A DNA stretch of 64,000 nt from Intrasporangiaceae bacterium (GTDB taxonomy: Bacteria > Actinomycetota > Actinomycetes > Actinomycetales > Dermatophilaceae), in assembly GCA_021324575.1 (NCBI GenBank), contig JAJPIW010000011.1:1-64000 (forward strand), given 5' to 3'. Position numbers and translations under genes: made by a program. The notes beneath the pieces are model-generated. The model saw nothing but the letters and a program-made list of their open reading frames with translations. It was not told where the DNA came from and did not search any database. This document shows positions 5,287 to 44,570 of the stretch, in pieces. Numbering within the stretch: the stretch's first letter is position 1; the number at the start of each line of letters is the position of its first letter.

Positions 5287-6120
5287 CTAGTCCCCCGACG
5301 GCCCGGACAGGTCGCCGTAGAAGGGACGAAGCAGGCGCGGCGGCGCGAACGGGGCCCAGTCCGCCACCGGACGGGCCAGCCGGTCGGCGACCACCCACAG
5401 GGTCGCCGGGTCGTAGCCGAACCCGAGGTGGCTGCACCGGACCTCGACGTTCTGGTGGGTCGGCTCCACATCGCCGAGACAGGCCCGCCAAGCCACGATC
5501 CCATCGAACCGGGAGTAGACCGACGTCGTCGGCACCGGCACCGGATCGGTCCAGTGCGAGGGGGTCGGGAACCGGGTCGGCCGGGCATGCAGCGCCATCA
5601 GCCGGTCGAACGTCGCGTCGGCATGGGTTCGGTGCCCATGGGCCACCCCGAACGGCGACCCCAGGGTGATGACCTGTCGGACGTATGCCGTGTGCTCCAT
5701 GGCGAGGTACCGGGCATAGATCCCGCCCAGGCTCCACCCGATGACCGACACCGGCCCGCCGGTGCGCTCCGCGAGGTCCCGCAGGCCACCCGGCATACCG
5801 TCGAGGATCGCCTCGGTCGGGCCGAGGTTGCGACCGAGGCGCCAGCCACGGACGTAGTAGCCCCGGCCGCGGAGGAACGACCGCAACGGCCGGGTGCTCG
5901 CGTCGGAGGCGAGCAGGCCGGGCAGAACCAGCACGCCGTGGCCGTCGCCGGGTGGCGCCGAGCGCAGCCACGGGGTGGCGACCGGCAGGATGGCCCGGTC
6001 GATGACGCCGCGGAGCGGCTCGGTGAGGTACAGCGCGGCAGACGGACGCACCCCGAGGGCCCGAAGGCTCTCCGGCTCCGTTGCCGGCCCGCTGTCCATC
6101 CGCCGAGAGTGACAGGACAT
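5287..6120 (-). CDS. Alpha/beta-hydrolase lipase/acyltransferase
   Basis: Predicted serine hydrolase acting on lipid esters. The 277-residue protein has the segment HGVLVLPGLLASDASTRPLR, an oxyanion region resembling PGPP-type lipases, and the nucleophile elbow VIGWSLGG. A late SHLGFGYDP supplies a candidate catalytic His. A candidate Asp stands in SRFDGIV. It has no signal peptide. The start is uncertain: ATG at 6120 (MSCHSRRMDS) or ATG at 6099 (MDSGPATEP), neither with a strong ribosome site. It lies directly upstream of the WS/DGAT gene, which suggests cooperation in lipid storage or remodelling. The exact substrate cannot be read from the sequence. Confidence 0.8.
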   Translation of the reverse strand: MSCHSRRMDSGPATEPESLRALGVRPSAALYLTEPLRGVIDRAILPVATPWLRSAPPGDGHGVLVLPGLLASDASTRPLRSFLRGRGYYVRGWRLGRNLGPTEAILDGMPGGLRDLAERTGGPVSVIGWSLGGIYARYLAMEHTAYVRQVITLGSPFGVAHGHRTHADATFDRLMALHARPTRFPTPSHWTDPVPVPTTSVYSRFDGIVAWRACLGDVEPTHQNVEVRCSHLGFGYDPATLWVVADRLARPVADWAPFAPPRLLRPFYGDLSGPSGD

Positions 6121-41375: not shown

Positions 41376-42599
41376 TCACATGAAGTTCTTCGTATGCAGC
41401 GCGGAGAGCTCCGCAGCCTCGCCATCGGGGAAGCCGATCGCGGCCAGCCGCCGGCGGCGACCCTCGTCCATCCGGCGCTGCAGGCCCTGGACGGCCTCCC
41501 AACCGCGCCGGATCGCAGCCGGCTCCCAGGACCCCGCCGCGAGCAGCACCAGCCCGTCGAAGACCGACTGGTTCAGCCCGGCGGTGTCGCGAAGCGCCTC
41601 GTGACGACGTTCGACCGCGCCGCGGAGCCGGCCGAGGAAGGCCGGGTCGCTGTGCGCGATGTATGCCGTGTGCGCCACTCCGAAGGCGACGTGCCGGGCC
41701 TCGTCGCGCGCTGCCAGCCGGGTGACGTCGGCCGTGACCCGGTCCGGCGCGAAGTCGTGGATGAACTTCAGCAGGTCCACGAAGGTTCCCTCGCCGAGAA
41801 CGGACAGGAGGAACGAGGCCAAGGTGAAGTCGGGCTCGTTGAGCAGGGTCTGCAGGGACTCCCGGCCGTCGGCGCCGGACCGGCCCATCTGGCCCCGGGT
41901 CAGGAGGGCCCGCCGGGTGAAGATCTCCACATGGCGGGCCTCGTCGGCGACCTGGGAGGCCAGCAGCTGCATCACCTCGCGGTAGTGCGGGTGCAATGTG
42001 CCCAGCATCCTGGCCGGGATCATGAGCGCGGCCTGCTCGTTCTCCACGAGATAGGTCATGATCTGGACGACGGCGTCCTCGATGTCATCGGGGACACCGC
42101 TCGGCGGCGTCCAGTCGATGATCGTGTTGGGGTCCCACTGCGAGGCAGCAGCGCGCGCGTACAGAGTGGGCGCGATGTCCGCCCACACGTGGTCCCGCTC
42201 GACCCAGGCGACGTCGAGCTTCGGACCACCGGCCTCGACGAGCGCACCACGCGCAGCCAGGCCCCAGGTCCGGTCCGCCCTGGGCAGAACGCCACCCGGC
42301 TCACCCGCGCGGACGGCGCCCGACCAACGCTGGTCGTGCGCCGCGCCCTTCTCCAGGACCAGCGAAGGCCCGTCGCTCAGCTCATCCGACGACAACCGAT
42401 CCGCTGCTGGCATCGGCCGATCCGCTGCCGGCAGCAGCCGATGACCGTGCGACCGCGCCCACGCCCCCAGCATGAGGGACAGGCCGCCGGACCGGCCGCG
42501 CACCTCCAGCTGCTCCCCGGGACGCAGCCCGGCGAGGGCGCGCTCGAGGAGGATGTGGCCGCCCTCGTCGAGGGCGAGGTCCTCAAGGTCGATAGTCAT
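41376..42599 (-). CDS. TusA-like/ferritin-like diiron fusion protein
   Basis: The 407-residue protein joins two modules. Residues 1-55 resemble the second half of TusA/SirA (LAGLRPGEQLEVRGRSGGLSL to ARSHGHRL) but lack the sulfur-carrying CPxP cysteine. Residues 130-400 form a ferritin-like helical domain with two identical DEARHV motifs (219-224, 299-304) and Glu in ENE (186-188) and GEG (270), enough for a four-helix diiron site. This predicts oxygen-dependent or reductive chemistry on a small substrate. It overlaps the upstream PhnD-like gene by 17 bases and ends the three-gene unit. The function is not known. Confidence 0.8.
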   Translation of the reverse strand: MTIDLEDLALDEGGHILLERALAGLRPGEQLEVRGRSGGLSLMLGAWARSHGHRLLPAADRPMPAADRLSSDELSDGPSLVLEKGAAHDQRWSGAVRAGEPGGVLPRADRTWGLAARGALVEAGGPKLDVAWVERDHVWADIAPTLYARAAASQWDPNTIIDWTPPSGVPDDIEDAVVQIMTYLVENEQAALMIPARMLGTLHPHYREVMQLLASQVADEARHVEIFTRRALLTRGQMGRSGADGRESLQTLLNEPDFTLASFLLSVLGEGTFVDLLKFIHDFAPDRVTADVTRLAARDEARHVAFGVAHTAYIAHSDPAFLGRLRGAVERRHEALRDTAGLNQSVFDGLVLLAAGSWEPAAIRRGWEAVQGLQRRMDEGRRRRLAAIGFPDGEAAELSALHTKNFM

Positions 42600-43440
42600 C
42601 CGCGGTGATGTTGCCCTCCGCGTCGTAGAAGCCCGTCTCGTCGACGGCTCGCTCCAGTGCAGCGTAGTTCTCCGTCCGACCCGGCAGCCACTGCTTCAGC
42701 CCTTCGAGGTCGAGCAGCCGGCGGACGGTCGGGTCGGCATACGACATGGCGAGAAAGGCGTCGTTCAGGGTGGCCACCGCCTCGGGGTCCGCACCCGGCG
42801 CCGTGGTCATCATGCAGTGGTCGAAGGGCTCGGTCTGGCCGAGCACCGACAGGTAGCCGCTGGGGACGGTGCCCTCCTGGCTGAACACGATGAGGTTGGC
42901 GTCGAGCACGCAGGCCGCGTCGACGGAGCCTTCGCGCAGGGCGATCACGGCGTCGCGTTCGCCGCCGACGTGGTCCCCGTGCAGGCCGACACCGACGTCG
43001 AACCGGACCACCTCGAAGTCCTCACCGGGGACGAGCCCCTGCGACCGCAGGTACGACAGCGGGATCAGCGTCGACTGCGGTGAGTCCACCGCCCCGACGC
43101 CGACCCGCTTGCCGCGCAGGTCGGACAGCGTCTCGGCGCCGCTCCCCGCGCGGGTGACCACGGCCGAACGCAGCTCACGGTCGGAGTCCCGCATGAAGAG
43201 CGGGACGACCGTCAGCCCACGCGCCCTGGCCAGGCGGTCGGCCCGGACCCAGGCGAGCGGGGAGTTCCAGGCCAGGTCGATCCGGTTCGCGAGGAGGTCC
43301 TCCACCTGGCGTTCATAGTTGGAGTACAGCACGAAGTCGGTCTCGATCCCGCGCTCCCGGAGGAACCCGCGGAAGCCCTCCCAGATCGTCACCACCTTCG
43401 GGTCGTAGGCCACCGACCCGATCACGAGGGGGGTGCTCAC
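42583..43440 (-). CDS. PhnD/SsuA-like substrate-binding protein without a signal peptide
   Basis: The 285-residue protein has the two-lobe fold start STPLVIGSVAYDPKVVTIWEGF, then VEDLLANRIDLAWNSPLAWVRA and VVTRAGSGAETLSDLRGKRVGVG, as in phosphonate/sulfonate ABC transporter binding proteins. It has no signal peptide or lipobox, and no permease or ATPase gene is near. It is therefore predicted to be cytoplasmic, where it could bind a ligand for its partner enzymes. GTG at 43440 overlaps the stop of the flavoprotein gene (GTGA). Confidence 0.8.
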   Translation of the reverse strand: MSTPLVIGSVAYDPKVVTIWEGFRGFLRERGIETDFVLYSNYERQVEDLLANRIDLAWNSPLAWVRADRLARARGLTVVPLFMRDSDRELRSAVVTRAGSGAETLSDLRGKRVGVGAVDSPQSTLIPLSYLRSQGLVPGEDFEVVRFDVGVGLHGDHVGGERDAVIALREGSVDAACVLDANLIVFSQEGTVPSGYLSVLGQTEPFDHCMMTTAPGADPEAVATLNDAFLAMSYADPTVRRLLDLEGLKQWLPGRTENYAALERAVDETGFYDAEGNITADDYRP

Positions 43441-44570
43441 ACATCCCCCAACAACGGCAGCCCACACATGGCCCGACCGACGAAGTCGAGCAGTGCGTCG
43501 GTGGTCGGGGCCATCACCCGCGCCGCACGCGAGTCGCGAAAGCGTCGCTCCACGGCGAGCTCCTTGCGGAAGGCCGCGCCACCGCAGGCCACCATGGCCA
43601 GGTCGGACACCTCGGCAACCCCCTGGTCGGCGGATGCCTTGGACTCCAGCACGAGCAGCACCGCCTCGGGGCGGGCGGCGGCGACCGCCGCGAGTGCGTC
43701 CTCGACCAGGGTCCGGCTGCGGTCGCTCTGGATCTGCATCTGGGCGAGCCGGGTGCGGGAGGGGAGCTGCTGGGCCAGGGTCTGGCCCAGGTGCTGCAGC
43801 TGGGTGCCGGCGAGGTGGTCCCTCGTGGCCGCGGTCAGCGCCTGCATGGCTCCCACGCTGGCGGACGCGTTGAGCAGCAGGAACCACGGGAGCACGACGG
43901 CGAGCGCGTGGTCCAGGCCGGTGCCGTCGGTGCCGAGCAGGTCGGTCGCCGGGATCCGGACGTCCACCGCCGTGACCGGGCACGAGTCGTTGCCGCGCAG
44001 GCCGAGGCCGTCGAAGGTCGAGGGGATGCTCAGGCCCGGAGTGTCGGTGGGGACGTACCAGAGCGTCATCGGACCGTCGGCCGCCAACGGGGTCGAGGAC
44101 CAGACGTAGCTGTCGGCTTCGTGCGCAGAGGTCACCCAGCTCTTCTCCGCGTTGAGGACGACCTCGTCACCGTCGGCGGCGGCGGTGCTCACCGGCGCCC
44201 AGAAGTGGCTTCGCGAGCCCCGCTCGGAGAAGGCGAGGGTGGTCAGGTGGTCTCCTGAGGCGATCGCGCGCACGGCCTGCTCGTGTCCAGCGGCCACGAG
44301 CATCGCGGTGGCCGAGTAGTGCATACAGACCACCATGGCGGTAGAGGCACAGGCCTGGGCGAGGCGCCGGACGACGTCGGCCGCCACGTCCATCCCGGCT
44401 CCGCCCCCGCCGTACTCGGCGGGGACCGTGACGGCAAGGATCCCGGCAGCACCGAGGGCGTCGATGGCGGCTCGGGGGAAGGCACCCTCGGCGTCGACGG
44501 TGGCCGCCTGCGGCGCCACGATCTCGTCGATGATGCGCTGGAGGCTCTCGTCAATGGACACTTCGGACAC
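43437..44570 (-). CDS. Acyl-CoA-dehydrogenase-like flavoprotein
   Basis: The 377-residue protein has the three-domain ACAD fold: helical N-terminus (ESLQRIIDEIVAPQAATVD to GGGGAGMDVAADVVRRLAQA), a beta domain with LAFSERGSRSHFWAPV and KSWVTSAHEADSYVW, and a C-terminal helical bundle. Family members include fatty-acid dehydrogenases and group-D flavin monooxygenases such as DszC and SfnB. I could not fix a catalytic Glu. The start is GTG at 44570 (or 44561), with AGGAAG upstream. It leads the overlapping unit with the PhnD-like and TusA-diiron genes. Confidence 0.85.
   Translation of the reverse strand: MSEVSIDESLQRIIDEIVAPQAATVDAEGAFPRAAIDALGAAGILAVTVPAEYGGGGAGMDVAADVVRRLAQACASTAMVVCMHYSATAMLVAAGHEQAVRAIASGDHLTTLAFSERGSRSHFWAPVSTAAADGDEVVLNAEKSWVTSAHEADSYVWSSTPLAADGPMTLWYVPTDTPGLSIPSTFDGLGLRGNDSCPVTAVDVRIPATDLLGTDGTGLDHALAVVLPWFLLLNASASVGAMQALTAATRDHLAGTQLQHLGQTLAQQLPSRTRLAQMQIQSDRSRTLVEDALAAVAAARPEAVLLVLESKASADQGVAEVSDLAMVACGGAAFRKELAVERRFRDSRAARVMAPTTDALLDFVGRAMCGLPLLGDV

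Follow-up and report, generated by a model that had tools for sequence, protein, structure and literature searches.

A compact three-gene cassette, found at positions 41376-44570 on the reverse strand of a 64,000-nucleotide stretch of an Intrasporangiaceae bacterium genome (the window; GenBank assembly GCA_021324575.1, contig JAJPIW010000011.1), is very likely linked to the selenium and selenocysteine machinery of its hosts, as judged both by gene neighborhood and by genome-wide co-occurrence. The three genes overlap by 4 and 17 bases and encode, in order, a protein resembling acyl-CoA dehydrogenases (ACAD; gene 1, 43437-44570), a protein resembling solute-binding proteins (SBP; gene 2, 42583-43440, 285 amino acids), and a fusion of a TusA-like domain with a diiron domain (gene 3, 41376-42599, 407 amino acids). 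We favor the interpretation, to which we would assign a probability of roughly 0.6, that the trio is an accessory module of the selenocysteine trait, supplying selenium in the cytosol to SelD or SelA.

The original prediction, made from the window alone, had taken the overlaps to indicate a fixed functional unit, and the three genes are indeed a conserved unit. A survey of genomes in which each species is represented once returned 14 clear gene 3 homologs, from Actinomycetes, beta-proteobacteria, and a Kofleriaceae metagenome-assembled genome (MAG), together with one weak match. We assembled 22 loci from 13 of these homologs, the window, five further actinomycete genomes, and three mycobacterial genomes, omitting an Ideonella locus cut at a contig end (L019), the weak match (L020), and two diverged homologs (L066 and L140). 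The SBP gene stands beside gene 3 in all 22 loci and the ACAD gene in 21 (counting L015, which is cut by a contig end), so that all three genes are kept in 21/22; and because gene 3 homologs that are 52-77% identical retain this gene order across phyla, the arrangement is more than chance. Whole-genome searches, which scored the best few candidates per genome (four for gene 3, six for the SBP, three for SelB), gave 9 gene 3 matches among 394 actinomycete genomes (6 full-length, 2 remnants, and 1 diverged) and 14 SBP matches (6 at E <= 2.2e-139 and 8 distant); the full-length gene 3 genomes and the close-SBP genomes are the same 6, and the co-occurrence of the families that had been proposed as a check is thus found among both the 22 loci and the 394 genomes. 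Two of 57 near relatives matched, the window's own genome and one marginal case, and gene 3 was present in 2 of 329 proteobacterial genomes, one of them the query genome and the other diverged, too few for a co-occurrence test. Gene 3 remnants lie at L067:9949-10116 and L065:9332-9748 in two SelB- and SelD-positive genomes, and the gene 3 fragment of genome G170 lies directly upstream of selD; such remnants suggest loss of the cassette.

Seven of the 22 trio loci contain selA, selB, or selD within the stretch examined (64 kb for the window and 10-20 kb elsewhere, in places truncated by contig ends), in several arrangements. Specifically, i) in L007 (Streptomyces hyderabadensis) the order is SelD-ACAD-SBP-gene 3-SelA-SelB on one strand, with tRNA-Sec after SelB; ii) in L017 and L018 (Hydrogenophaga and Roseateles) it is formate dehydrogenase (FDH) subunits-FdhE-SelA-trio-SelB-tRNA-Sec; iii) in L064 (genome G180) trio-FDH-SelA-SelB-tRNA-Sec-SelD fall within about 14 kb; iv) in two mycobacteria (L136 and L137) SelB-SelA-SelD-trio-FDH adjoin; and v) in L006 (Amycolatopsis) the trio faces SelD and SelA, with SelB placed by coordinates about 0.5 kb past the fetched stretch. 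The sel and FDH neighbors were recognized by eye and cross-matched among loci, and SelA, SelB, SelD, and the FDH alpha subunit were then confirmed by family searches; FdhE, outside those searches, was named by eye and cross-matching. Most neighboring genes of the trio loci carry no annotation in this analysis.

Genome-wide counts point the same way. SelB, counted only above its curated cut-off since EF-Tu cross-matches below it (so that weaker true SelBs are missed), is present in 6/6 full-trio genomes versus 69/394 overall (hypergeometric P = 2.4e-5), and in 8/8 when the remnant genomes are added (P = 6.2e-7), neither value being corrected for phylogeny. By the same measure SelB is present in 13/14 genomes of loci L006-L019, the miss being Ideonella; SelD is present in 21/23 genomes examined, the misses being Ideonella and G094 (diverged homolog only); and SelA is present in 24/25, the miss again being Ideonella, with G487 contributing a SelA match while lying outside the SelB and SelD searches. 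In the window's own genome SelD, tRNA-Sec, SelA, and SelB are found together on another contig; an in-frame TGA also occurs there in a formate dehydrogenase gene, as in 16/19 genomes examined. Among the genomes searched, the trio is limited to those with SelA, SelB, and SelD, Ideonella being the one apparent exception.

Several further features of these neighborhoods and genomes were noted. A GntR-like regulator, named by eye, lies right after gene 3 in L006 (9379-10035) and upstream of selD in L007 (3929-4681). Two transport genes from other families, for an ABC permease and an extracellular solute-binding protein, lie beyond tRNA-Sec in L007 (12565-15640), a possible uptake partner seen at this one locus. 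L006 encodes a 99-residue protein without a Pfam match beside SelD and opposite the trio (5427-5726), and its genome (G437) has three over-cut-off matches each of SelA, SelB, and SelD. In L136 (2820-5912) SelA matches fall in two frames, part of them continuing into SelB in one long open reading frame, which reflects a frameshift, a fusion, or a sequencing error. A SelD match with an in-frame TGA (L122, in the Kofleriaceae genome of L015) is probably selenocysteine-containing.

The setting of the cassette in the window is functionally uninformative, the flanking genes being unrelated: by Pfam, one flank has a DinG-like helicase and the opposite flank has DNA polymerase III delta and ribosomal protein S20. 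A glycoside hydrolase is also among the Pfam-tested window neighbors, none of which is a permease or ATPase adjoining the trio. A reading of the trio as a defense system was rejected, a PADLOC search having given no match at 0.01 for any of the three proteins.

Gene 1 starts with GTG at 44570, and a further in-frame GTG at 44561 agrees with the family start. The product is a predicted flavoprotein in which the Pfam Acyl-CoA_dh N, M, and 1 domains (N-terminal, middle, and C-terminal) are all over cut-off; the best NCBIfam match is Rv1679_FadE16 (NF049984), at 368.8 bits under a cut-off of 600. An HMMER alignment with three solved ACADs places M-A-P-T (residues 350-353; 43503-43514) where SCAD-type enzymes have Y-E-G-T, and residue 351 is Ala at the position of the SCAD catalytic Glu; M350 and P352 are invariant, and A351 nearly so, among 12 aligned family sequences. 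At what we take to be the alternative, IVD-type catalytic position we read Phe227, which is likewise no acid. Ordinary acyl-CoA dehydrogenation by the gene 1 product would therefore be unlikely, since Ala replaces the SCAD-position Glu and the IVD-type position by this reading lacks an acid.

Gene 2 matches Pfam Phosphonate-bd at 120 bits and the Rv1680 family (NF049985) at 229.3 bits, not reaching the curated cut-off of 400. The structure model (mean predicted local distance difference test, pLDDT, 91.4 overall; 64 over residues 151-160, and so weak around H154) is closest in the PDB to PhnD and PtxB (Foldseek 1.1e-22 to PhnD 7s6g), and also matches the arsenate-binding ArrX and the arsenite-binding AioX. 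As originally predicted, a binding protein of transporter type appears to have become intracellular: unlike PtxB and PhnD, gene 2 has neither permease nor ATPase partner, and no signal peptide was seen in any of the 22 loci by inspection rather than by a predictor, the first beta-strand starting within the first ~20 residues. For PtxB (PMC5700983) the oxyanion ligands are given as Y55, S130-T131-S132, and H160, with Y208 capping the fourth substituent. The corresponding pocket of gene 2, assigned by sequence alignment to solved proteins and not from model coordinates, retains Tyr55 (Y42), Ser130 (S120), and His160 (H154) when aligned with 5jvb, whereas Thr131 is replaced by Pro, the second Ser by Gln, and the cap Tyr208 by Cys209. 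The motifs concerned are DSPQ (residues 119-122; 43075-43086), in which Ser120-Pro-Gln aligns with the PtxB S-T-S motif; HGDH (residues 154-157; 42970-42981), whose first His aligns with the PtxB oxyanion ligand His160; and H208-C209 (42814-42819). Five HMMER alignments show Tyr in the cap column of 5jvb, 5o2j, 5lv1, and 7s6g, and Ala in 5ub3. The H208-C209 pair is present in 32/32 sequences (selenium type, 22; Rv1680 type, 10); fixed pocket differences between the two types include DSPQ versus DSA[QH], and Leu90 versus Tyr or Phe.

Gene 3 proved, as predicted, to be a TusA-like/diiron fusion with two DEARHV motifs and, in the window protein, a TusA-like domain (residues 1-60; 42420-42599) free of cysteine. 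The Pfam TusA match of the window protein is weak (E = 0.008; 16.4 bits, cut-off 28.6); each of the 14 family members gives a match at E <= 1, the best at 2.1e-7. One cysteine occurs in the domain of 11/14 members, and none of the 14 has it at the CPxP site, the Cys of which we take to be the hallmark of TusA sulfurtransferases. The C-terminal part (residues 143-404; 41388-42173) is modeled as a ferritin-like four-helix bundle with two E..ExxH ligand sets, for which metal and O2 chemistry is predicted: in the gene 3 model (pLDDT 78.0) it aligns with the azoxy synthase VlmB (8wvr; VIA-align Z 21.1, 3.2 A over 252 residues) and with aldehyde-deformylating oxygenase (ADO; 4rc5; Z 20.6, 2.5 A over 214 aligned residues). 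The putative metal ligands E186/E188, E220, H223, E270, E300, and H303 are invariant in 14/14 members; E220 and H223 lie in the first DEARHV motif (41928-41945), E300 and H303 in the second (41688-41705). Sequence searches with gene 3 found no solved structure at E <= 1, and 11/14 members match AurF at E <= 1, the window protein at 20.2 bits, below the cut-off of 29.6. Gene 3 thus shares the ferritin-like diiron fold of VlmB, ADO, and AurF, but differs from them in its fusion to a TusA-like domain and in falling under the AurF cut-off. Oxygen use by the module, another element of the original prediction, is probable, to judge from the modeled diiron fold. Two diverged diiron homologs without the TusA part (L066:9331-10542 and L140:14-598; 30 and 33% identical) have no trio partners in the stretches examined. 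From SirA-like and YedF proteins, which we take to be kin of TusA, gene 3 differs in having no Cys at the TusA site and a diiron fusion instead of a DsrE-like domain. A SirA-like domain is linked to selD, and YedF is given as a selenium candidate, in PMC2432076 and PMC5322559, respectively.

A sister of the cassette is an operon of the type Rv1679-Rv1680-Rv1681 (FadE16, SBP-like, and MoeX; the first two names are taken from NCBIfam, and the third gene is presumably Rv1681/MoeX). It was found with the same order, ACAD-SBP-radical SAM, in 17/17 distinct genomes (loci L090-L099, L134, L135, L139, and L155-L161), namely the 8 actinomycetes with distant SBPs and the 10 mycobacterial genomes, out of 118, that score above the Rv1680 cut-off, one genome belonging to both sets. 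The sister operon resembles the trio in gene order, in its H-C pair, and in sequence identity of about 43-47% for the ACAD and about 36-39% for the SBP (one match being split, at 36 and 44%). It differs in that the third gene encodes a radical SAM protein (82.8-85.2 bits in three tested) rather than a diiron protein, and in the pocket signature of its SBP (T-N, Y/F, DSA[QH]AA, KHGDT, and [CS]HC). SelB is over cut-off in only 3/8 of the sister-operon genomes, compared with 6/6 for the full trio (Fisher P = 0.03), and no sel genes occur in 9 wide windows around the sister operon; the selenium link therefore belongs to the diiron form and not to the shared ACAD-SBP scaffold. A TusA-like N-terminus of the radical SAM partner was considered and is not claimed: Pfam gave E values of 0.032 and 0.25 for two of three proteins and nothing for the third, and a profile comparison gave a probability of 4.2% (reversed control, 0.9%).

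How such a module might work is a more speculative matter, and we regard a cytosolic, probably oxygen-dependent chemistry as a tentative suggestion. The ACAD-fold and diiron proteins could act on an organic or an oxidized selenium compound in O2-dependent reactions; the product would be a small anion of selenium, such as selenite or one like selenophosphate, which the SBP-like protein would bind so that Cys209 points at the selenium; the TusA-like domain, without the TusA Cys, might serve as a docking module rather than as a chalcogen carrier; and the captured anion would be handed on to SelD or SelA. Put together, and only as a working proposal that may well be wrong, the cassette could be an oxygen-dependent route into selenocysteine in which a base-less ACAD-fold protein and a TusA-diiron protein free selenium from intracellular organoselenium and a Cys-capped, formerly transport-related SBP passes the anion to SelD or SelA. 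Such a cassette could have arisen modularly from an ACAD, a cytosolic SBP, and a swappable third enzyme, diiron or radical SAM, the Rv1679-Rv1681 operon being the other form.

We wish to stress that a number of observations weigh against a dedicated role in selenium supply. No sel gene was found in the stretch examined for 15/22 loci, the window included, and the ACAD gene is missing from one MAG locus, L013. In Ideonella (L019) neither SelA nor SelD gave a match and no SelB exceeded its cut-off; since an FDH gene there does contain an in-frame TGA, the contigs examined may not include the sel genes of this genome. Counted by genus the SelB link is weaker (5/5, P = 0.003; with remnant genomes 7/7, P = 2.8e-4), and two SelB- and SelD-positive genomes (G170 and G398) have gene 3 remnants only. 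Because the full trio is absent from 63 of the 69 SelB-positive genomes and present in just 6, it is dispensable, as expected if it serves a particular selenium source or work in air, but also if it has some other accessory role. FDH genes travel with sel genes, and the two associations are hard to separate. Finally, Cys209 is not selenium-specific, since the Rv1680 family, which occurs in genomes without SelB as well, has the H-C pair too.

Other explanations can be set against selenium supply. The SBP might instead be a chaperone that binds selenophosphate made by SelD, or selenide, for delivery to SelA, with an oxygen shield formed by the ACAD-fold and diiron proteins, which would consume O2 or repair oxidized selenium. 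Selenophosphate can be viewed as an anion resembling phosphite whose fourth substituent is soft, and a leaderless protein (by inspection, at 22 loci) whose PtxB-type pocket keeps Y42, S120, and H154 and places a Cys over that substituent would suit it, as would the position of the trio between SelD and SelA in L007; this scheme nevertheless leaves unexplained the need for two dedicated oxygen-type enzymes, most SelB-positive actinomycetes in the sample manage without the trio, and we consider it unlikely. A module that served not selenium as such but the maturation of the selenocysteine-containing FDH, or of the molybdenum cofactor of that enzyme, would account for the FDH genes near the trio in L017, L018, L064, L136, and L137 and for the in-frame TGA of FDH in 16/19 genomes. 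In L006 and L007, however, sel genes are next to the trio although the 17-kb locus contains no FDH match, and the genomes of L007 and L014 have SelA, SelB, and SelD but no match to FDH-alpha (TIGR01553, the one FDH family searched) at 1e-60, which makes an FDH-only role less likely as far as that family goes; we judge FDH maturation rather improbable.

Detoxification, in which the module would oxidize or sequester toxic selenide or mis-made sulfur analogs from the selenium pathway, would fit the proximity to sel genes of oxidative-type enzymes and of a protein that binds small anions. None of the tests made counts directly against it; no exporter was recognized among the recurring neighbors, most neighbors being unannotated, and we find this reading quite improbable. 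The original prediction had proposed an intracellular pathway for an organosulfur or organophosphorus compound, drawing on the likeness of the proteins to SfnB/DszC-type ACADs, SsuA/PhnD, and TusA; the ABC permease and extracellular binding protein beyond tRNA-Sec in L007, although of other families, could be counted in its favor. That chemistry found no support: the recurring neighbors are sel genes, SelB co-occurs with the trio, and no recurring sulfur or phosphorus gene was recognized among the largely unannotated neighbors, so that neighborhood and co-occurrence point instead to selenium, and we regard a sulfur or phosphonate pathway as highly improbable.

No description of the cassette, and no operon of the same composition, was found among the matches listed in a search of open-access full texts (few subscription papers and no preprints among them). 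Within these texts no paper combined Rv1679 with Rv1680, none combined at least three of the Rv, FadE16, and MoeX terms, and none combined four of the five terms selenium, diiron, SBP, ACAD, and selenophosphate; Rv1680 was absent from the matches listed in a related open-access search. The accessible portions of four selenium papers (PMC5322559, PMC9312934, PMC2432076, and PMC13188914) contain no instance of "acyl-CoA" at the start of a word. In the open-access literature searched, no characterized system of this composition was found; the trio would become a variant of the Rv1679-Rv1681 operon if that operon is characterized.

To our knowledge, little is understood of how aerobic bacteria obtain and protect trace selenium for selenocysteine, or of the chemical form in which SelD receives it. 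A compact cassette of three genes, located within sel operons, provides named proteins for testing. The trio further suggests that a soluble binding protein was recruited to metabolism alongside two enzymes of oxygen type, and that a sister module with a different third enzyme is represented by the Rv1679-Rv1681 operon.

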